A stretch of DNA of 45,699 nucleotides, from positions 1 through 45,699 of IMG/VR virus record IMGVR_UViG_3300030329_001912. One strand, given 5' to 3'. A program made the translations under genes and the position numbers. The stretch's first letter is position 1, and each line of letters starts with the position of its first letter. The DNA comes from a virus. Of this stretch, positions 20,600 through 39,711 are shown piece by piece. The notes below the pieces were generated by a model. The model had not been told where the DNA came from and searched no databases. It saw only the letters and a list, made by a program, of their open reading frames with translations.

Positions 20600-21235
20600 A
20601 TGGCAAAAACACTAGATGCCACATTTGACCCTTCTAGTCAATGGAAACCTATTGAAGAAGGTGTCTATCCTGCTCATATAAAATCTCTTGAAACAAAAGA
20701 GGTTAATACAAGAGCTGGAGAAGCTATCGTAGTTAACATGAGATATAAAGTAGCTGATGAAGTCGCTGAATACACTCAACCCGTATGGGAAATGGATGGC
20801 TATGAATATGTTACAGATAAAGATAATAATAAATTACCTGTAACAAACGGAGATGGAGAACAAGCAACTATGACTTGTGAACATCTAAAAGGTAGAGAGC
20901 TACAAGACAATGGATTCTTTGTATTTACCGACAGTGGTTCAAGTAGTAAAAATCGTAGATATTTTGAATTACTTGACAATCTACAAATAAAATGCACAGA
21001 AGCTAATGTAGACGGAAAGAAAGTAAAGAAACTTGTACTTCTTGAAGAAGAAGATGTTGTTGGTAAACCAGTAATGGTTACATTAAAGCGACAAGAGTTT
21101 GTTACTTATGAAACGAAACACCTTCCACCTGACCAACAAGAGCGTCGTTCAACATTTAAAGTTAATAATGTTAAGATTTGGGAAAATGGTGAACCAATAG
21201 CTGCAGCTGAATTAGAAGAGGACGTACCCTTCTAG
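20600..21235 (+). CDS. SSB-like single-stranded DNA-binding protein
   Basis: 211 aa. A beta-rich body (GVYPAHIKSLETKEVNTRAG, then IVVNMRYKVADEVAEYTQPV) resembles OB-fold/DUF669-type phage proteins. The C-terminus, AAAELEEDVPF, is an acidic tail ending in D-V-P-F, nearly the bacterial SSB tail D-D-I-P-F that binds replication and recombination partners. Its place after a Cas4-type nuclease and a Rad52-like annealase supports single-strand DNA protection. I see no second OB domain. The start has a TAAGGAG site. A 346-base structured gap follows. Confidence 0.65.
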   Translation: MAKTLDATFDPSSQWKPIEEGVYPAHIKSLETKEVNTRAGEAIVVNMRYKVADEVAEYTQPVWEMDGYEYVTDKDNNKLPVTNGDGEQATMTCEHLKGRELQDNGFFVFTDSGSSSKNRRYFELLDNLQIKCTEANVDGKKVKKLVLLEEEDVVGKPVMVTLKRQEFVTYETKHLPPDQQERRSTFKVNNVKIWENGEPIAAAELEEDVPF

Positions 21236-21248
21236 AGTAAGTTAAAGT

Positions 21249-21341
21249 ATAAGACTGGGTATTGCCAGCAGTTAGTTAATTCTTCTAGAATGACGATTTG
21301 TTACCGCAATAAAAAAAACTGTGCTATGGCTCCAGTCTTAT
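21249..21341 (+). ncRNA. Pseudoknotted structured RNA (element B)
   Basis: P1: ATAAGACTGG (21249-21258) with CCAGTCTTAT (21332-21341), 10 perfect pairs. P2: TATTGC (21260-21265) with GCAATA (21306-21311). P3: ATTCT/AGAAT (21279-21283/21287-21291). A possible pseudoknot joins CAGTT (21269-21273) inside the P2 loop to AACTG (21317-21321) between P2 and P1. It starts 14 bases after the SSB-like gene stop. No match to a known riboswitch or ribozyme that I recall. Confidence 0.55.
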
Positions 21342-21345
21342 TTAA

Positions 21346-21431
21346 TTTAAGGTGTTGAAGCGCGTAATTCCAGACGTGGTTGGAACAACTTAATGAACTC
21401 AAAAGTTAGCATGCGCAGAGTTCGCCTTAAA
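21346..21431 (+). ncRNA. Compact pseudoknotted RNA (element C)
   Basis: P1: TTTAAGGTG (21346-21354) with CGCCTTAAA (21423-21431), one G-U pair. P2: GCGCGT (21360-21365) with ATGCGC (21411-21416), one G-U pair. P3: TTCCA (21368-21372) with TGGAA (21381-21385). P4: AACTT (21387-21391) with AAGTT (21403-21407). The P4 loop has GAACTC (21395-21400), which pairs perfectly with GAGTTC (21418-21423) between P2 and P1. Almost every base is used, which makes a functional fold likely. Starts five bases after element B and has a similar architecture. Confidence 0.65.
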
Positions 21432-21459
21432 ATATTAATAAAAAGTATTTTTTAAATAA

Positions 21460-21465
21460 TATAAT
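21460..21465 (+). promoter_or_regulatory. Candidate -10 box before element E
   Basis: TATAAT lies in an AT-rich linker after element C. Transcription starting about seven bases downstream would begin right before the first helix of element E (21477). No good -35 is visible, so this is tentative. Confidence 0.3.
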
Positions 21466-21476
21466 AATCATAAATT

Positions 21477-21558
21477 AGAGATGAGGGCGGTGGTTTCTTA
21501 TTAGTTTTTCTTCTTCCTCCTCATCTCTCTCCTAACTACCTCGGAGAAGCCGCCCTCA
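21477..21558 (+). promoter_or_regulatory. Leader RNA with mutually exclusive helices (element E)
   Basis: Helix 1: AGAGATGAGG (21477-21486) with CCTCATCTCT (21519-21528), 10 perfect pairs. Helix 2: TGAGGGCGG (21482-21490) with CCGCCCTCA (21550-21558), 9 perfect pairs. They share bases 21482-21486, so both cannot form fully. In addition, TCTCCT (21528-21533) can pair with the ribosome-binding site AGGAGA (21571-21576) of the gene at 21582. The arrangement resembles an expression switch. The loop side is a long pyrimidine tract (about 21496-21533). Confidence 0.5.
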
Positions 21559-21581
21559 AATCTTTAAATAAGGAGAAAGAC

Positions 21582-21932
21582 ATGTTAGCAGTTTACACAG
21601 ATATAAATGGTAGAAAAACATTTCTTGGAAAACACATAGATAATGAAATAGTTCGTGAATTTCCTTTTACTAAAGCTGTCTTATGGCAGGATAAAAACTT
21701 AGGTTTTGATAAAAGATTGCTTAAATATGCTAAAGAAAATAACGTAAAATCTTTTATATTTTCTGACCCCATAAAAGGAATTAGTCTTAAAATTGGGATA
21801 AAAGCGGCTATATCAAATGGCAAACAAAATGAATTTGGACAAGGCCAACAATGGTATATGCCAAAATCAATAATGAAAAGATTAGAAATATATAGGAAAA
21901 CGCCCTATGTCAAGAAAGAAGTAATAATATGA
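21582..21932 (+). CDS. Early protein of unknown function
   Basis: 116 aa, MLAVYTDINGRKTFLGKHID.... Alternating beta strands and basic helices, with NEFGQGQQWYMPKSIMKRLE and a basic C-terminus. No family recognised. A strong AAGGAG site (21570-21575) lies seven bases before the ATG and could be masked by element E, so translation may be regulated. Overlaps the next start by ATGA. Confidence 0.7.
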   Translation: MLAVYTDINGRKTFLGKHIDNEIVREFPFTKAVLWQDKNLGFDKRLLKYAKENNVKSFIFSDPIKGISLKIGIKAAISNGKQNEFGQGQQWYMPKSIMKRLEIYRKTPYVKKEVII

Positions 21933-22433: not shown

Positions 22434-22453
22434 AAAAGTGACGACTGTTGGCA

Positions 22454-22516
22454 AGGGCTTAGTTGTTCTGTAACAGGTATGTGGCGGACAGCGAGTTAAC
22501 GCCTACGCTAAGCCCT
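22454..22516 (+). ncRNA. Structured RNA with possible kissing loops (element D)
   Basis: The 117-base gap 22434-22550 has no gene. AGGGCTTAG (22454-22462) pairs perfectly with CTAAGCCCT (22508-22516). Inside are the hairpin TGTT-CTGT-AACA (about 22465-22476) and a stem GTGGCG/CGCC(T)AC (22481-22486/22500-22506). The CTGT loop (22468-22471) can pair with ACAG (22488-22491) in the second loop, giving a kissing contact. GC content is much higher than nearby genes. Class unknown; not a terminator because no T-run follows. Confidence 0.5.
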
Positions 22517-22550
22517 AAATAATTTATAAACATAAGAGATGAGGAATTTT

Positions 22551-31089: not shown

Positions 31090-34000
31090 TTAGCAATTAA
31101 GAATCTCTTGAAATTCTGCCTTAGATTCAGACATATTTGGATTCAAATTGTTCTTGATTTCTCGTATTGATTCATGCATATCTTTTAATTCTCTTAACTT
31201 TTCAACATTAAACTGAGGAGTTCTCTCTAAAGATACACCTCTTTCATAATATTTACTACCACCCATTAAAGTATACACAGGACTATTTACTATACTCTCA
31301 GCAATTGGATTACCTTTTGCTAACTCTTTCTTTAATCTTCCTCCTATAAATATATCACCAGCAATTTGTCTTACTTCAGCATCAATATTTTGTCTTAATG
31401 ATAAGTATTTCATTGGGTCTATTATATTATTACCCATCATCTCAGCATCCATTACACTCATCTTCTCTAGATAAGAATCAAACTGACCTTCTTTACCAGC
31501 TAGTCTCATTACATTCCTATAGAAATCTATTAAATGGTCATTCATTAATCCAAATCCACTTGACATTCTATTAGAATCTCTTTGCCATTGTACTGACCTA
31601 AAGTCACTAAACAATCTTGTAAAGTCTTGATTAAAATCTGGAAGTCTTAAATGATTATACATTACCATTTTACCTGCTTTACCTATTGCACCTACATCTA
31701 AAAAGTCTCCCACTTCTTCACCAACTAACCATCTTTGGTCTACTCTTTTATTAAAGAATCTTGAAAAAGTAGATTCAATAAACTGTATTTGCTGTAATGA
31801 ACTTTTTGCTAGCTGTTGATTTTGAGCAACATCTTCAACAGTTTTTTGTGTTCCAGATGCAATCTCTGTAAGCAATCTAATACCCCTTCTATACTTAGAA
31901 GATGGGTCAAAGGTTTCAGTTGATTGATAAGGTACACTAACAGGTCTATTGTTAAATACACCAACCGCTTTCTTGTTCTGAGCAGGTTGCATAAATGAAT
32001 AAAGGAATGTAGGCCCATGTCTTTCATATCCTTCCATCAACAACTTCGTTTCTAATTGATAGAAAGTATTAAGGTCTGGGAATTTATTTATTAAATCTAT
32101 TTCTTGATTTGTTAGTAATGTCTTACCTCCAAACCTCATAAACTCTTTTAATCCAGTCCGATTTCCATAGAATAATCTTCTTATTTTCCGAATAAAATTT
32201 AAATCTTTTTTAGCAGTTGGACTTAACGACCATCCTCCCGGCAACATATTCTTAACATTTTCTAATGTTGCATAATAAATAGTACCATCAATCACATTCT
32301 TATCATCAGCAAATACTAATTCTATTTTATCTAAATCTTTTCCTTTTCTAGATTTTAAATATTCTTTAGGTAAGAAATCATATCCCATTTCTTTTTCTAA
32401 TTTAGTAATTAGTTTATTAAGCTTATCAATTGACTTCTGTTTAGCATCCCATCTTAACTTGCTATTTAAAATAGTGCCTATCTTTTTCTTTAAATTAGCA
32501 ACCAACTGTGCTTTACGATTATAATCTTGTAATCCTTTTTTAACTCCTCTAGTCAATCTATCAGCTGCAGTTTCAAGTTTATCTACTGATACTCCAGCTT
32601 CTATTGCTGACATACCTTCTCCACCGCCAAGTAATTCATTATACCATTGGTCAATTAATTCAGCAGTTCTAGTACCAACTGTCCTTGTAGTTGTTGCTCT
32701 AAATGGGTCAGCGTTATAAAATTGCCACAATATTCTATCTACTGGGGCTCCTCTTTCACCTCTAGCAAATTCTAAAGCATTTAGAGTTACATTTGGGTGT
32801 AAAATATTTTTTTCTGGTTGCCAATATCTCTGTTTTTTACCTTGAGCATCTTTAAATGTTTTTCCCTCTCTATCTACCCCAAAGTATTCATTAAAATCTT
32901 TATCACGCTTCCACGGCGTTTCTTCTTTTCCTTCATTACTACCCCATTTATTTCTTAATCTATAATAAAGACTCTTATTAATTGTCTTGTTAAAATTAAA
33001 GAATGATTCAGAGCCTGATATTACATCAGTGTATTCAGATTTTCTTTGTTCTCCAGTCTTTTCATAAACAGAATCATTAGTAACATTTAAAAGTTTACTA
33101 TATTCAGATAGTAATTGATTAAGAATTGCTCTATCTAACTGAGTTAAGTCTACTTCATTAAGACCTTCTGGAGTTCTAACAATCTTTCTAAAAATCCTTA
33201 CTCTATTACCATCAGAATTTCCTTTTGACCTTAAATCATTTATAAAACCTGCTTGATTTCTTCCTTTCATTTCATTAGGAACAACAGAATTATCCATACG
33301 AGGAAACATAAAATCTGGTCTCCAACTATAAATATCACTTGTAATATCTGGATTAAGTCTACCAGTTGCATCTAATATTAATTGAGTTTCTAAGGCAGCT
33401 CTTTGGAAATAATCTTTATTTTGATAATCCATAACTATCATAAAGTTTTGACCTTCGTTGCCACCTATTAAAATCTTAGCATCTTCTGTAAATCTTACAT
33501 TAGGTCTCTCTTGATTAAATCTTTCTACAAACGCATCTCCTTTTGCATCTACTCCTAATTTATCTCCATATCCTAACATTCTAGGAACTTTCTGAACAAG
33601 ACCAATACTTTTTTTATACACATTAGCATTAGCCATCATTTCATTCTTAGCTCTAGCTGCTTCTGTAGCATTCATACCTAAGTTATATGATATAGGTTTT
33701 TTATACATATCTGGATTAATTCCTTGTACAAAAAACTTAGAAGCTCTTCCAACATGCTCCCACATAGAAGGTCTATGAGCAAAAAAGAAATCTGCTTTAT
33801 CAAAATCATAATCTCCTTCTGCTACATTAGCAACATCCATAGAATTAACTACTACCGCATTACCATATGTCTTTTCTAAGAAACCTTTTAAAGCATACAA
33901 TCCAAAATCATTAGGTCTTGTTCTTGGATTTCTTCTAATCATTACACCAATACTAACATCATCTGGATAATATCCTTCGGATTTTAAAGATTCAAAATAT

Positions 34001-37000
34001 TGATGAAATGTACCTAAAGTCTGTGTACCAACTTTTTGCCAATCTTTAAAGAAAATTTTATCTCTATATTCAGGCGATACTAATTCATTCATAGCTTTAG
34101 TATCTAATACTTCTCCATTTCTAACAAATCTAATTCTATAACCTAGGTCATGTAATTCACTAAAACTTAAATCAGCTGCATAAGATGGTATCATAGCTTC
34201 ACCTTGCATTTGTACTTTTCCATCTCTGTCAACAAGTGTAGGTCTAAGTCTTTTACTTATCTCTGGTATCTGAATAATAGGAGCTTGCCCTCCATATCTA
34301 TGTGAATCTTCTGCATTATATTGATTGGTAGCAGACTTCAACCCATTTATAACATTATCAATATATATATTATATAATTTATTCTTTACCATTCTATCAC
34401 TATAGCTCATAGGATTAGCATCTGGAGATAAAGCTGAATAAATAGCCATGTTACTTACTGTCTTCATTCCTTCCCCAGCTTGTAAATCAGCTACTAAAGC
34501 ATCATCTCCAAGAGTTCTTAACATCCATCTATTTAAAGTAATTGGGTCTTGCATTACTTCAGCCATCTTTTCAATATTAGATTCAAGTATACCTGCGAAC
34601 TCTCTATCGAACATAAGTTTAGATTCAGCGTTATTCATAAAGTTAGCATCAGCCTGAGACTTTTTTGCTAATACAAAATCTGCATCTTTATTAGGCATTA
34701 GACCTACTGATTCTATTGATATCTTTCTAATCTTTTCAGATGTAAGTCTTTGATTGTTTAAATTTTCCCAACCAGTATTAATTAAACTAGCATCTTCCAT
34801 CCCTGGTTCACCAACACGATTATGAACTTTTGCTCCAGTTTTAGTAATCAATATATCAACTGCTTTATTTCCTTTAAAGAATCCATCTAATGATTCACTA
34901 TATACAAATAATGTTTTACCTAATAACAATGGAGATTCAGGGCCACCAGATGATATAACTGGTTTAATTGGATTAAAAGAAAGTGGGTCATGCCCCATTA
35001 AAGCGTGATATGCTCTCATCGTATCTCTTGATATAAATGCAATACTATCAAATGCAGATACATCTTCATGAGCTCTTCCAATAACAGTATCCCAATCCCA
35101 CTTAATCCTCTCCTTATCTACAAGAATTTTTACTTCATCTTTTATCTTAGCGTACTCAGCATCATTCCAAATAGCAACTCCGAATCCATCATTATTAATA
35201 ATTCTTCTCAATGCTCTAGCTGTATCTTTATCTCGTCTTCTTGTTGTAATCCCCTCTGGGTCTGCGCCAAACATATAAACATCAGCAACATCTTTTATAA
35301 ATGATTTATTATATCTTACATATTTTTTAGTATTAAATAATTTTATTCTTGATAATGTTTTCTCAGCATCTACTCCATTAACAAAACTCATAAACGCTCT
35401 ATCACCATCAGAACCAGTAAGCATTTGTTTTGCAACTAAATAAGTCATCATCTGTTCATACTCGGCTGGAGTCATTGGCTCATTTTTATCAATCTTTCTT
35501 TCTAGTTCTTCTAGCTGTTTTGTAGCTTGAGGGTCTATACCTTCTTTATTCTTATATTCAGTTATAAATTCTTTCCAAGGTTCTTTAAGTCTAGGTAAAT
35601 CTTTAGCTGCAACAACTATAGGGTCTGCACCAGGAGCAAGATTCATTAACCTTAATCCTCTCTCACCATCCTTACCTTCTAAATGCCAAATACCATCTTC
35701 AGGTTTAAATACAGAAGTCTCTTGTTCTATACTAGCTATAAACTCTGATTTATGTTTTCTTATCTCATCTTTTAATTTTCGACTTATTACAGTTGCATCA
35801 TCAAATATATTTATCTGTTTGTCTATATAATACTTTCCATTAGCAGACATTTCAGTTATATTCATTCTTCCGTCAACTATCATATAAGGAATTTCTAACC
35901 CATCAGTTAAATATTCATGTAATCTTGTTAACTGTATTACTTCTGGTGTCTTTTGGTAGTCACCATTTTTATAACTTAAAACATTGACATTTATTTGAGC
36001 TCTTTGAGAACCTAAAAGACCAATTAAATCTTCTCTTATTTGAGGAAGTCTTTCTCTTTGCTCTGAATCACTTAAGCTTCTATATCTTTTCCAATCATTA
36101 TCTACTTTTACATCAATTCTATCTAATACTTTTCGAACTGCATTTGTATCTAATACTCTAGTTTCTGTTCCAGTGCCAGGAACATATACTAATGATTCAA
36201 AGTTTGAATACTTAGTTGCTGAATCAAGATTTGTTACATCCTTACCATCAATTCTATACCTTTCATAAAAAGTATTTAAATCAATATGTTTAACTTGTCC
36301 TCTTTCAGTAGAGTCCTCAATAAAATTATCTCTAGCCTTTTGCTCAAGAATCTCATATCTTTCTTTAGCATATTCTGGAGTATATCCAAAGGTAGACATT
36401 TTCTTTTCCATCTGCATTTTTAATAAATCAGTAAACTTTTCTACATCAACATCATAATCTCTTTGATTCTCTTTAGGCTTAATTACACCAGCTTCCCCTA
36501 ACCATTGTAGAACATTAAGCTCATTACCTGGTCTTGAGTTCAAGAAATCCTTTAACTGTTGTCTAAAAGATGCATATCCTCTTTTCTGAGTAGATAGTAA
36601 TGACATAAATTCAGAAAGTGTTGACTTAGCAGCCATTGAAGATTCACCTTGAATCTGAATACTTCTATCTAAGGCTTCCATGTATGTTCTATCGAGAACA
36701 GTTATTCTATCTGCATCTTCTACAACAAGACCTTTACTATCCTCAATAATTCTTCTCATTGTCTTATTATAGTCACTTGCCATTTCTATAACTACTGATT
36801 CTGGATGTCCTTTCATCCTTGCTTCATCTATTAGTTTAACTCTAAACCCTGCAGCCTTACCTTCTGCAGCTGCTTCAAACTTAACTGCCCCAGTTCCAGA
36901 TAGATTAAACAATGCATCTACTTGATTTAATTTTAAATCTGTACCTTTAATTCTTTCTTGAAAAGCATAATTAACTAATTGAGACTGTAACCAAGGTTGC

Positions 37001-39711
37001 ATAGAATCAATATTAAGTTTCATATTATTAAAATAATTTCTTAACGCTTCTACTTTACCATGTGATACTTCTATAGGATTATTTGGGTCTACTTCATACC
37101 CTCTATATCCACCAACTGCAGATTGTAATGTTAATACTCTACTTAAAAATCTTATATCTCTAGCAGTTGTTTCTGAATCAGCTCCTGTAACTTTTACTTT
37201 AGGTCTTCCATTCTCAGAAGTAATCGCATCAACTACAAGAGCTTCACTTATATTTCCTGGGCTATATAAAACACCAGCATCAACAAGCAATCCTATAAGC
37301 CTATCTCTGTCTGCATAGTCCCTTTTAAATATTGATGTAGCTTCTTCACTAACTCTTATACCATGATTACGCTGAAGAAGACCTATATAATCTCTAAAAG
37401 AATCTGCTATGCTAAATGGTTCAGCCATCGGAGAATTGTCTGGAAATTGTCTTTCTACATTACGTTCAAAAGAAGAAACTCTTTCATATATTTGCTTGAA
37501 TAAAGATTCTGAATTAATATCTTTCTTAGGAGCAACTGGATTTACTTCAGCATAATTTAATAAATTAACTGTTGCCAAAGCTGAGTTAAAACTATCTGAC
37601 TTTTCATATAATAAATCTAATGCTTCTTCACCTTTTAAAACTTCTCCCTTTGCATTTACTAACCATGTTAATTCACCATCTATTGCTTTTTGTTTTATTT
37701 CTTCCCCTATTGTAATCTTCTGAGGTATTATTAATCTTCTACTACCATCCTTTGTGTTAGATTCTACTGAAATACCAAGTATATTCTGAGGGTCTTCTAT
37801 TGTTTCAATAAGATGTTTAAATGATTCTTCAAAATTCTTCTGAGTTTTAAGAAATGTTCTTTCTAATGCTTCTTCACTTCCTATAGTAGTTTCAAATCTT
37901 TTGTCTGCTTTTAATATTAAATCACCAATTGTCTTAGCATCTTCTTTAGATATATTATCTAATGGCTTTGTCCATGTCTTTAATCCTTTCATATATGAAT
38001 ACATTCTATTAAAAACTGGATTAGAACCTTCTGCTGTAGCTGCGCTTACCACATCAGGTGTTAATTCAACAGATGCAACTTCATTTGAATCAGTAATAAT
38101 TTCTAATTCTTCTAACTTCTGTCTAACTTCAGCAAACTTAGCATCTAGAAATGGATTCTCAAATCTACTTTGTTTAAACTCCCAAGTAGGAATTGCAGAA
38201 AATCTCTCAGGGCTTATACCAAGAACTGTAAGATTCTGTCTTAACTGATTCATTTGTTTATGGTCAAGGTCAAACTTAGCAGGATTAGAACGTCTTTGCA
38301 CATAAGCACCAATCAAGAAACTTGGCAATACATCATTAACATCTGGTTCTAAATCATGAGCATATGTATCATAAAATGTATGAGCATTAAAGAATAATCC
38401 ACCTAACATCATCCTTCTCCAGTTTGCACCTATATTAGCAAGCTCTTGTTTAGATGCCCACTTCATCATATCACGACCAAATTGTCCACGCCTTTGCTCT
38501 AGCATCCTAACCATAGCTCTATTAGCATCTTTACCCCAAACCTTTTCTACATCATCAAATATACTTTCAGAACTAAGGTTTACTTTACTTGTCTTTCCTT
38601 TAAATGTATGAGTAACTATAGAAGATTGACCATTTGCTTCAGCTAATCCTCCTAATAATGAAGACCTTTTAATTAACTGCTCTCTTGTCATATCATCAAA
38701 TGCGCCTTTTCTTTGGAAAGTAGCTTTCAATCCTGCCATAAAATCTGGTTTAAATGCAGCTGCTTTACCTCTAGGTTTCAACCAACTAAGCTGTCCAAAC
38801 AATGCACCAGTTCCAGCTCCCCACAATGGAGCAGTCCAATCAAAATTCTTATCTTCTACCATTGATACACCTTCAAATATTGTATCAATTGAACCAAACA
38901 TTACAGCATCGTCTATGCTATGACCTATTACTTTTGCTAATCTTGGATTAGTTTCAGCCAATCCTCTTAGTTTCATTAATCCTTTAAAATCTTGCAGAGG
39001 TCTTTTGAATACATTATTTGCAAACATATCTCTTACAGCTTGAGCTTGAGTAGCATCTAATACACCATCATCTAATCCTCGTTGTACATATTCTTCTAAA
39101 TATTCTTTTGCAACTCTACTAAATTCTGCTCCTTGAAGTTTAGGGTCTACAGCTGCTTGTCTAGCAAGAGTTCTATATCCTTTAGTAACTTCTTTTACTG
39201 CTCCTCTAGAAAGACCTCCTTCAAGACCTCTTTCTTTCATCCCCTTTACTACTTGTTCTACACTTTCTTTACCAGCTTCTTTTAATTGTTTTCTTGCTAG
39301 TGTACCAAATCCTTTATGTAGAATTTTAGCACCAACTTTTAATGGAGCACCTGCAACGAATCCTGCGAATCCACCAATAGCTCCAGTCCATTTAGCAACA
39401 GGGTCTTCATATTCTAAATACTTTTCTTCTTCTACAAGAGCACCAGGTACTCCAAACAATGCAGTATCAACAAAACTCCATAGACCAACACCGACAGCAT
39501 TCATTAAACCAGCTTCTGGAGAATCCTCTACTGATGGTTGATACCATTCTGGGTACTCATCTGCACCCATTACATCCCAAATATTTCCTTGTTGTTGTGG
39601 AGCTGCTATAGGAGATATAGCAGTTGTAGCTGCGGTATCACTTATTCCTAATGATTCACGAGCTTGTTGTCTATATTTATTATAATACTTATCGAAATTG
39701 CTTTGAGGCAT
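31090..39711 (-). CDS. Giant virion protein, possible single-chain RNA polymerase
   Basis: 2,873 aa. Residues 71-92 and 107-125 are glycine/alanine-rich hydrophobic segments (GLWSFVDTALFGVPGAL; WTGAIGGFAGFVAGA), as in ejected proteins that pass membranes. The middle contains VMIRRNPRTRPNDFGLYALK, then NAVVVNSMDVANVAEGDYDF-DK, with DYDFD at 1967-1971. This layout recalls the beta-prime segment NRxPT...AI...NADFDGD of RNA polymerases. Upstream, GKTLFVYSESLDGFFKGNKA and DILITKTGAK place lysines at 1599 and 1628, as expected for the partner double-psi barrel of YonO/QDE-1/crAss-like single-chain enzymes. The glycine of DxDGD is replaced by Phe. Alternatively this is a large polyvalent ejection protein with no polymerase. 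It is about 19% of the genome. Confidence 0.6.
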   Translation of the reverse strand: MPQSNFDKYYNKYRQQARESLGISDTAATTAISPIAAPQQQGNIWDVMGADEYPEWYQPSVEDSPEAGLMNAVGVGLWSFVDTALFGVPGALVEEEKYLEYEDPVAKWTGAIGGFAGFVAGAPLKVGAKILHKGFGTLARKQLKEAGKESVEQVVKGMKERGLEGGLSRGAVKEVTKGYRTLARQAAVDPKLQGAEFSRVAKEYLEEYVQRGLDDGVLDATQAQAVRDMFANNVFKRPLQDFKGLMKLRGLAETNPRLAKVIGHSIDDAVMFGSIDTIFEGVSMVEDKNFDWTAPLWGAGTGALFGQLSWLKPRGKAAAFKPDFMAGLKATFQRKGAFDDMTREQLIKRSSLLGGLAEANGQSSIVTHTFKGKTSKVNLSSESIFDDVEKVWGKDANRAMVRMLEQRRGQFGRDMMKWASKQELANIGANWRRMMLGGLFFNAHTFYDTYAHDLEPDVNDVLPSFLIGAYVQRRSNPAKFDLDHKQMNQLRQNLTVLGISPERFSAIPTWEFKQSRFENPFLDAKFAEVRQKLEELEIITDSNEVASVELTPDVVSAATAEGSNPVFNRMYSYMKGLKTWTKPLDNISKEDAKTIGDLILKADKRFETTIGSEEALERTFLKTQKNFEESFKHLIETIEDPQNILGISVESNTKDGSRRLIIPQKITIGEEIKQKAIDGELTWLVNAKGEVLKGEEALDLLYEKSDSFNSALATVNLLNYAEVNPVAPKKDINSESLFKQIYERVSSFERNVERQFPDNSPMAEPFSIADSFRDYIGLLQRNHGIRVSEEATSIFKRDYADRDRLIGLLVDAGVLYSPGNISEALVVDAITSENGRPKVKVTGADSETTARDIRFLSRVLTLQSAVGGYRGYEVDPNNPIEVSHGKVEALRNYFNNMKLNIDSMQPWLQSQLVNYAFQERIKGTDLKLNQVDALFNLSGTGAVKFEAAAEGKAAGFRVKLIDEARMKGHPESVVIEMASDYNKTMRRIIEDSKGLVVEDADRITVLDRTYMEALDRSIQIQGESSMAAKSTLSEFMSLLSTQKRGYASFRQQLKDFLNSRPGNELNVLQWLGEAGVIKPKENQRDYDVDVEKFTDLLKMQMEKKMSTFGYTPEYAKERYEILEQKARDNFIEDSTERGQVKHIDLNTFYERYRIDGKDVTNLDSATKYSNFESLVYVPGTGTETRVLDTNAVRKVLDRIDVKVDNDWKRYRSLSDSEQRERLPQIREDLIGLLGSQRAQINVNVLSYKNGDYQKTPEVIQLTRLHEYLTDGLEIPYMIVDGRMNITEMSANGKYYIDKQINIFDDATVISRKLKDEIRKHKSEFIASIEQETSVFKPEDGIWHLEGKDGERGLRLMNLAPGADPIVVAAKDLPRLKEPWKEFITEYKNKEGIDPQATKQLEELERKIDKNEPMTPAEYEQMMTYLVAKQMLTGSDGDRAFMSFVNGVDAEKTLSRIKLFNTKKYVRYNKSFIKDVADVYMFGADPEGITTRRRDKDTARALRRIINNDGFGVAIWNDAEYAKIKDEVKILVDKERIKWDWDTVIGRAHEDVSAFDSIAFISRDTMRAYHALMGHDPLSFNPIKPVISSGGPESPLLLGKTLFVYSESLDGFFKGNKAVDILITKTGAKVHNRVGEPGMEDASLINTGWENLNNQRLTSEKIRKISIESVGLMPNKDADFVLAKKSQADANFMNNAESKLMFDREFAGILESNIEKMAEVMQDPITLNRWMLRTLGDDALVADLQAGEGMKTVSNMAIYSALSPDANPMSYSDRMVKNKLYNIYIDNVINGLKSATNQYNAEDSHRYGGQAPIIQIPEISKRLRPTLVDRDGKVQMQGEAMIPSYAADLSFSELHDLGYRIRFVRNGEVLDTKAMNELVSPEYRDKIFFKDWQKVGTQTLGTFHQYFESLKSEGYYPDDVSIGVMIRRNPRTRPNDFGLYALKGFLEKTYGNAVVVNSMDVANVAEGDYDFDKADFFFAHRPSMWEHVGRASKFFVQGINPDMYKKPISYNLGMNATEAARAKNEMMANANVYKKSIGLVQKVPRMLGYGDKLGVDAKGDAFVERFNQERPNVRFTEDAKILIGGNEGQNFMIVMDYQNKDYFQRAALETQLILDATGRLNPDITSDIYSWRPDFMFPRMDNSVVPNEMKGRNQAGFINDLRSKGNSDGNRVRIFRKIVRTPEGLNEVDLTQLDRAILNQLLSEYSKLLNVTNDSVYEKTGEQRKSEYTDVISGSESFFNFNKTINKSLYYRLRNKWGSNEGKEETPWKRDKDFNEYFGVDREGKTFKDAQGKKQRYWQPEKNILHPNVTLNALEFARGERGAPVDRILWQFYNADPFRATTTRTVGTRTAELIDQWYNELLGGGEGMSAIEAGVSVDKLETAADRLTRGVKKGLQDYNRKAQLVANLKKKIGTILNSKLRWDAKQKSIDKLNKLITKLEKEMGYDFLPKEYLKSRKGKDLDKIELVFADDKNVIDGTIYYATLENVKNMLPGGWSLSPTAKKDLNFIRKIRRLFYGNRTGLKEFMRFGGKTLLTNQEIDLINKFPDLNTFYQLETKLLMEGYERHGPTFLYSFMQPAQNKKAVGVFNNRPVSVPYQSTETFDPSSKYRRGIRLLTEIASGTQKTVEDVAQNQQLAKSSLQQIQFIESTFSRFFNKRVDQRWLVGEEVGDFLDVGAIGKAGKMVMYNHLRLPDFNQDFTRLFSDFRSVQWQRDSNRMSSGFGLMNDHLIDFYRNVMRLAGKEGQFDSYLEKMSVMDAEMMGNNIIDPMKYLSLRQNIDAEVRQIAGDIFIGGRLKKELAKGNPIAESIVNSPVYTLMGGSKYYERGVSLERTPQFNVEKLRELKDMHESIREIKNNLNPNMSESKAEFQEILNC

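Follow-up and report, generated by a model that had tools for sequence, protein, structure and literature searches.

The window, the whole 45,699-nucleotide stretch analysed here, is an IMG/VR virus record with genes like those for terminase, portal, major head protein, DNA methyltransferase and ParB, together with a DnaB-type helicase-like gene. A minus-strand open reading frame of 2873 aa occupies positions 31090–39711, and near it are reading frames of 934 and 951 aa with no PHROG match. The leader element described here lies on the plus strand between two genes. The upstream gene (20600–21235, +) encodes a protein of 211 aa with the C-terminal tip EEDVPF, which is alike across 13 aligned sequences. 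No Pfam, PHROG or convincing PDB-sequence match was obtained for this protein. Its AlphaFold model (mean pLDDT 82) has several single-stranded-DNA-binding (SSB) proteins among its top matches in the PDB, where none of 338 matches reached E<=0.001. The model weakly resembles SSBs and we call the product SSB-like. Comparison with one genome per bacterial and archaeal species gave 34 pattern matches and no relatives of this protein. The downstream gene (21582–21932, +) encodes a protein of 116 aa belonging to a family of unknown function, with relatives 51–90% identical. In many relatives other genes take the place of this downstream gene, so that the first downstream gene varies between clades. 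Neither the window DNA nor the two flanking proteins matched anything among 50,697 phage records (named phages).

Analysis of the leader confirms the arrangement which a first-pass annotation had described from the letters alone, namely a pair of helices, each excluding the other, next to a ribosome-binding site (RBS). Helix A joins AGAGATGAGG (21477–21486) to CCTCATCTCT (21519–21528) by 10 bp with 100% complementarity, and helix B joins TGAGGGCGG (21482–21490) to CCGCCCTCA (21550–21558) by 9 bp. Because positions 21482–21486 are common to both 5' arms, the full helices A and B exclude each other. The 5' arm of helix B pairs with CCGCCCTC, and GAGGGCGG matches the window exactly at two places, the two arms of helix B. 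Complementarity together with comparison of relatives (see below) delimits the 5' arm of A to 21477–21487 and the 3' arms A' (UCCUCAUCUCU) and B' (GCCGCCCUCA) to 21518–21528 and 21549–21558, while comparison places the 5' arm of B at 21482–21491 (all +). The Shine-Dalgarno sequence (SD) AGGAGA (21571–21576, +) is complementary to TCTCCT at 21528–21533, as had also been noted. This TCTCCT opens a stretch, called here U' or the anti-SD stretch (21528–21541, +), whose limits are based on swap tests, duplexes and SD complementarity. TCTCC (21528–21532) and GGAGA (21543–21547) can form a small hairpin (21528–21547, +), which offers the anti-SD stretch an alternative partner in the clade of the window; the minimum-energy structure of the leader includes a hairpin of this region. 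Folding energy of the single sequence is not unusual (z = -0.74, with 48 of 200 shuffles as good), and the larger stretch 21236–21600 gives a z of -2.36. Since the leader of the window alone folds no better than its shuffles, relatives were sought, and the support beyond chance is comparative.

Relatives were sought by the downstream protein, by the upstream SSB-like protein and by DNA pattern. The element is present in 67 further virus records, 68 in total. The main set consists of 64 records including the window, which reduce to 51 unique elements in 20 clades at 72% identity. It derives from 74 loci of the SSB-like protein, 71 of which were considered (L123–L125, with a partial protein match ending there, were left out) and 61 analysed, to which the window, L038 and L042 were added. 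L054, L055 and L088 were left out because their sequence stops before or inside the element. In L071 and L075–L077 the element lies further downstream; these four are later finds and stand outside the covariance model and the main statistics. L117, L119 and L120 lack the element behind the upstream gene, and their records contain no strong match to the model. The covariance model pairs helix B only, yet the letters of all 81 positions went into it. Over 38 whole records it gave one strong sense-strand match (E<=7.6e-5) in 32, four of them the later finds L071, L075, L076 and L077, which are absent from the model; all other matches in these 32 records were weaker (E>0.003) or overlapped this place on the antisense strand. 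The six records without the element are L013–L015, fetched for their homologue of the downstream gene, and L117, L119 and L120, which carry the upstream gene. In L075 another gene separates the SSB-like gene from the element, and because of this and of the variable downstream gene the element is not linked to any particular protein. Of the 20 stretches given by a pattern scan for TAAATT, arm and B', 19 belong to records of this group, and the remaining one (L134) has surroundings that look unrelated by eye. At the gathering threshold, Rfam has no match in the window except a tRNA, and none in 17 loci.

Other structured-looking sequences lie near the leader. A cassette ATAAGACTGGGTATTGCCA...ATGGCTCCAGTCTTAT follows the SSB-like gene in the window (21249–21341) and also in L001, L002, L003, L030 and L031; its closing stem is compensatory among relatives (GACTGG/CCAGTC, GGCTAG/CTAGCC, GGATAG/CTATCC), GGYATTGCCA and ATGGCTC are conserved, the interior is variable and the tail T-rich. 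It is a candidate RNA or terminator. A second cassette of the window, AAGGTGTTGAAGCG...CGCAGAGTTCGCCTTAA (about 21346–21429), is also found in L003 and L012, with closing letters partly changed in L012, and its presence or absence differs between close relatives. Other long hairpin cassettes occupy the same spot in L002 (two), L083–L095, L071/L075–L077, L117, L119 and L120; examples downstream of the SSB-like gene are GGGGAGT...TTGGCG...ACTCCCC and CTGAGGAGCTGACCGAAGTATG...GGCTCCTCAG. L028/L088 have a consensus sigma-70-type promoter (TTGACA, 17 nt, TATATA) within a hairpin cassette upstream of the leader. The region that follows the SSB-like gene appears to be a hot spot for such small structured elements. 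A further intergenic stretch of the window (22434–22538) has a closing stem GGGCTTAG...CTAAGCCC and a structured-looking interior, with no Rfam match.

The comparison shows that helices A and B are real and that both are kept by selection. We used a default MAFFT alignment (A3) of 49 sequences with 42 distinct rows, L038 and L042 being left out of the 51, and a second alignment of all 51 unique elements anchored at AGGG and CCCT, in which the intervening pieces were aligned without structure. Helix B in A3 has 98.9% of its cells paired, 31 cells in which both sides have changed (0/500 shuffles) and four pairs with a double change vs 1.9 in shuffles (3/500). For helix A, 85.2% of cells are paired and 23 are double-changed (0/500 shuffles); the number of its pairs with a double change, 3 vs 2.2, is not above shuffles (178/500), and pair types are above shuffles for neither helix. 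Inspection by eye shows A' wrongly placed in A3 for some clades (L107, L108, L111 and the L083 group), and the A3 figures for A therefore probably understate this helix. In the anchored alignment, B (first nine pairs) is 99% paired vs 42–61% when slid, and A is 88% paired vs 57–75%. An alignment-free swap test over the 20 clade representatives gave p = 0.0005 for both A and B, which is the floor of its 2,000 permutations, and p = 0.70 for the negative control of SD against B'. In most representatives, A extends from about -7 to +3 and B from about -1 to +8, in positions relative to the first base of the invariant AGGG (21484 in the window).

The five shared positions are paired in 232/255 cells in A and in 253/255 in B (51 elements). 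Matched changes are found in L060 (GAGATAAGGG/CCCTTATCTC/CGCCCTT), L061 (GAGACAAGGG/CCCTTGTCTC), L074 (AAAGACGAG/CTCGTCTTT), L079 (AGGGTAG/CTACCCT), L096 (AGGGTACTC/GAGTACCCT) and L101 (AGGGTGGTG/CATCACCCT). A change of a shared G to A in L060 is matched by C to T in both A' and B'; among the three sequences with A for the shared G, L060 is the only one in which B' matches. G-T pairs outnumber A-C mismatches in both helices (77 vs 23 in A, 37 vs 2 in B), which argues that the element acts as RNA of the plus strand. The four later finds, recovered with a model that pairs B only, keep A and also the helix U described below with other letters; helix A is interrupted in L071, and these loci differ little among themselves (the arms of L075 and L076 are identical).

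Covariation was also scanned all against all, over 10,033 column pairs and with 60 tree-simulated alignments as the null. The four highest-ranked pairs were two of B (21488–21552 and 21489–21551), one of A (21482–21523) and one of U (columns 21444/21530), with E values of 0.067, 0.42, 1.15 and 1.68. Thus, none of the 10,033 pairs covaries at E<=0.05. When the scan is limited to the 19 pairs of the first-pass annotation, simple arithmetic gives E values of about 1e-4, 8e-4 and 2e-3 for the top three, which are significant. The significance of the helices rests on these pre-stated pairs and not on the blind scan: the covariation expected of a generic switch between mutually exclusive helices is there, the all-against-all E values nevertheless staying above 0.05.

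In part of the relatives outside the clade of the window, U', the sequence that immediately follows A', is paired with a further arm, U, which lies upstream. Examples of U/U' are ATACTAAGGA/TCCTTGGTAT in L060, GCACTA.GG with CC.TAGTGC in L062, TGTCGAGAGAGAA/TTCTCTCTCGGCA in L097, GCCGAGAGA/TCTCTCGGC in L107, GGTAGTA/TACTACC in L092 and AAAGAGATAA/TTATCTCTTT in L075. A' and U' adjoin on one strand, and together they make about 20 paired bases in clades such as L060. The swap test over 20 clades supports U (p = 0.0015), its top-ranked covarying pair is canonical in only 75%, and against shuffled A'U' the duplex reaches p<0.05 in 7/20 clade representatives and falls below the shuffled mean in 6/20. 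Judged by these sequences, U ranges from strong to not recognisable, depending on the clade; no convincing U arm was found in the window's own clade. Elements of the L062, L097 and L075 types have stronger upstream arms than the window. The pyrimidine-rich strand is also complementary to the SD beyond what its composition gives: the SD x A'U' duplex is above the shuffled-mean stability in 20/20 clade representatives (p<0.05 in 10/20), and the swap test of the SD against the middle stretch gives p = 0.0445 (20 clades). L071, L075 and L076 have a CTCCTT just after B' which can pair with the SD (AAGGAG) in a local hairpin, a different route to covering the RBS; L077 has CTCCTCCT at that place.

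Sequences preceding the invariant AGGG resemble a promoter. A hexamer TAnnTT stands before AGGG in 51/51 unique elements (query TA..TT or TA...T, 5–8 nt before AGGG), at a spacing of 7 nt in 36 and 6 nt in 15. In the window it is the -10-like TAAATT at 21471–21476 (+). The TATAAT which the first-pass annotation had pointed to just upstream is present at 21460–21465, but its position is not conserved. A T-rich region holds the -35-like position (21447–21452, +), 18 nt upstream of the -10-like hexamer; relatives have TTGATT, TTTTAT and similar sequences there, and the ATTTTT of the window is weak. The T 23 nt before the -10-like hexamer, which was not part of the query, is invariant (51/51), in line with the 18-nt spacer, and the four later finds all have TTGTAT-18-TAAATT. 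Compared with L107, the interval from U to the -10-like hexamer is shorter by about 20 nt in L109/L110/L115, and these still have TTGCAA-18-TAATTT or TAAGTT at the right distance. A generic consensus promoter scan lists no promoter at this place in the window. Because of the spacing from TAnnTT to AGGG, the predicted transcription start falls at 21483–21484 (+), the (G)AGGG inside the shared arm, which is also where the calculated probability of helix B is at its maximum. We infer a promoter that overlaps the arms of A and B and starts RNA at (G)AGGG. Such a transcript would open with the arm of B, and the upstream half of the A arm (present only in read-through RNA) and all of U would lie before its start. 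This upstream part of the A arm, taken alone, gives no clear signal in the swap test (p = 0.057 over 20 clades, 0.33 over 51 elements).

Calculated folds depend on where the RNA begins. RNA beginning at the base before AGGG forms A with a mean probability of 0.11 and B with 0.83 (20 clades), whereas with 60 nt of real upstream sequence the values are 0.73 and 0.21, and with shuffled upstream sequence (letters shuffled singly, 10 per sequence) 0.15 and 0.76. In 19/20 clades, real upstream sequence gives B a lower probability than shuffled sequence does. The preferred helix changes between starts at -6 and -5, and P(B) peaks at the predicted start and drops on either side; starts between -14 and -6 give 0.49–0.59 for A and 0.35–0.46 for B. 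For the window, local RNA has B at 1.00, read-through RNA from the end of the upstream gene has A at 0.64 and B at 0.35, and RNA with 60 nt upstream has A at only 0.03. Read-through RNA stays in B in the window relatives L052, L053, L056 and L058 and in L083, L085–L087, L089 and L093. Nine of these ten elements (not L058) have a long hairpin and T-rich sequence upstream, which may already stop read-through there. We considered whether A is being lost in clades whose leader is shielded by a terminator-like hairpin upstream, and this is a trend only (p = 0.13, 5 vs 17 clades).

Responses to temperature or a small ligand, both raised in the first-pass annotation, found no support. From 37 to 10 °C, the mean P(A)/P(B) moves only from 0.14/0.80 to 0.21/0.73 (51 elements, predicted +1), and mean SD exposure in local RNA, calculated at 10, 20 and 37 °C, rises from 0.44 at 10 to 0.55 at 37 °C, so we rejected an RNA thermometer. 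No conserved unpaired core exists: 10/95 columns are invariant, mostly in the AGGG and CCCT arms, and with no Rfam family matched a ligand riboswitch was also set aside. The same holds for an intrinsic terminator or attenuator after B, as B is followed by AAATCTTTAAAT with no U run and the terminator scan lists nothing there.

In the nested folding model, opening the RBS is dearer in read-through than in local RNA in 19/20 clades (4.1 vs 2.7 kcal/mol, Wilcoxon p = 6e-6). However, real and shuffled upstream sequence give 4.37 vs 4.42 kcal/mol, no specific effect, and this control removes specific closure of the RBS in read-through RNA as a candidate. Because the shuffled sequence gives the same value, the opening cost is not used as support. 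A crude pseudoknot estimate has the opposite sign, with the SD closing more readily in local than in read-through RNA in 19/20 clades. The SD-closed form is favoured in 15 local vs 5 read-through RNAs of 20 at a penalty of 9 kcal/mol and in 18 vs 9 at 7 kcal/mol, and at 5 kcal/mol there is little difference (20 vs 16). Of the translational switch proposed at first, exclusive and selected helices beside the RBS stand, while specific closure of the RBS in read-through RNA was not found.

We propose that promoter and leader form one module whose RNA fold reports the origin of the transcript, a switch dependent on the start site, and we hold this reading to be evenly balanced between right and wrong. 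The local promoter would start RNA at (G)AGGG, lacking U and the upstream half of the A arm. Folding predicts that this RNA would close its own 5' end in helix B and leave the pyrimidine-rich A'U' exposed, and that in read-through RNA from the upstream gene A'U' would pair with the 5' arm and U, leaving B' unpaired. Since the upstream half of the A arm precedes the predicted start, the choice between A and B would be set by where the RNA starts and not by a ligand acting on one RNA. The least certain step is that local RNA might close the RBS through a pseudoknot of loop and SD over helix B more easily than read-through RNA does, in which case translation of the operon would differ between the two RNAs. 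That the local RNA is the closed form, opposite to the T4 examples discussed below, is suggested tentatively by the pseudoknot estimate. With similar reserve, the element might represent a new RNA family in which the A'U' strand has rival partners, U and A in read-through RNA and the SD in local RNA, with B as the exclusive helix; promoter and 5' UTR would form a co-evolved device setting the translation of the operon, and the exposed strand would possibly be a landing site for the SSB-like protein.

The original idea of a switch within a single RNA requires a start upstream of the A arm, after which a protein (e.g. the SSB-like one), a metabolite or the speed of transcription would interconvert A and B and change access to the RBS. 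It would suit the conservation of two exclusive helices, a start site that is itself a prediction, and the similar probabilities of A and B for starts from -14 to -6. We regard it as unlikely, given the -10-like spacing that places the start within the arm, the weak dependence on temperature, and the lack of a conserved unpaired core or an Rfam family. A reading of about the same standing gives the helices two unconnected jobs and no part in translation, B being a 5'-terminal stem that protects local mRNA against decay and A with U a hairpin for processing or decay of read-through RNA. B does begin at the predicted 5' end, A' and U' adjoin with about 20 paired bases in some clades, and the upstream arms do not specifically affect RBS opening. 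This reading leaves aside, however, that the five shared bases remain complementary to both partners and that the SD is complementary to A'U' above composition in all 20 representatives. It is improbable that the leader is a static pseudoknot which never switches, in which A' is paired with the upstream half of the arm and B' simultaneously with the downstream half. Topology permits this (the order is arm, A', B') and the folding program cannot score pseudoknots, but A' is complementary to the shared GAGGG in 232/255 cells, with T opposite the invariant A in 50/51, which such a structure would not need, although the pyrimidine richness of A' explains part of this complementarity.

The start-site dependence could also have the opposite sign, as in T4 gene e and I-TevI, with read-through RNA repressed and local RNA translated, and the exposed pyrimidine strand of the B form perhaps helping ribosomes to bind. 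The layout, with the promoter in the 5' strand, is that of T4, the RBS is cheaper to open in local RNA in 19/20 clades, and clades with a terminator-like hairpin upstream tend to a weaker A, as if A served read-through only. Yet shuffled upstream sequence reproduces the RBS effect, the terminator trend is the one at p = 0.13, and the SD lies in neither A nor U, so we doubt this version about as much as the single-RNA switch. An operator, replication origin or cruciform acting as DNA is very improbable. Such an element would account for inverted repeats that overlap a promoter-like sequence and for a single strong sense-strand match per record in 32/38 records. Against it, the arms covary over a long distance in a fixed register upstream of an RBS, and the excess of G-T over A-C in both helices is what plus-strand RNA would give.

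No description of this element was found in the open-licence literature, as represented mostly by titles and the openings of abstracts. The switch dependent on the start site would be carried by a structured leader without an Rfam match, in DNA which, like its flanking proteins, is unmatched among the phage records searched. Excerpts of PMC2864571 describe the STAXI motif as a pseudoknot RNA near SSB genes; Rfam gives no STAXI match at E<=5 in the window between 21200 and 22600. The autogenous leader pseudoknot of T4 gene 32, which encodes an SSB, is named in the portions of PMC3014915 drawn on here. The present element is similar in that a possible pseudoknot leader lies next to an SSB-type gene, but it is downstream of that gene, and in L071 and L075–L077 further downstream still, past another gene in L075.

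Transposase mRNAs of IS10/IS50 are protected by a fold of read-through RNA which sequesters the SD. Read-through and internally initiated RNAs fold differently there, as they do in the folds calculated here, whereas SD sequestration specific to read-through RNA was not found in our leaders. In E. coli pyrC, the first transcribed base decides whether a 5'-terminal leader hairpin forms. The present leader is predicted to resemble pyrC in this respect, and it differs in that two helices with separate partners compete.

The closest comparison is with T4. In the parts of PMC3014915 and PMC2988022 that describe T4 e, soc, 49 and I-TevI, a helix in the long early transcripts takes in the SD and/or start codon, late promoters give short, translatable RNA for e and I-TevI, and mobE of phage Aeh1 has an inhibitory RNA structure in upstream-initiated transcripts. 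As far as those descriptions go, our element would share with these genes a promoter within or beside the 5' strand of a helix and a fold near the RBS that is decided by the origin of the RNA. In contrast to the T4 and Aeh1 helices, which hold the SD and/or start codon, neither A nor U does so here, and the effect on the RBS is unspecific; hence the element is not a member of the T4 gene e/I-TevI type, though by analogy it may work like that type in its dependence on the start site. The short transcripts of T4 and Aeh1, as described there, are merely without the helix, whereas here the short transcript would have its own competing and covarying helix B. If the start site does choose the fold, the T4 idea of a promoter in a hairpin would be extended to a two-sided device, a compact and testable part which separates read-through from local expression.
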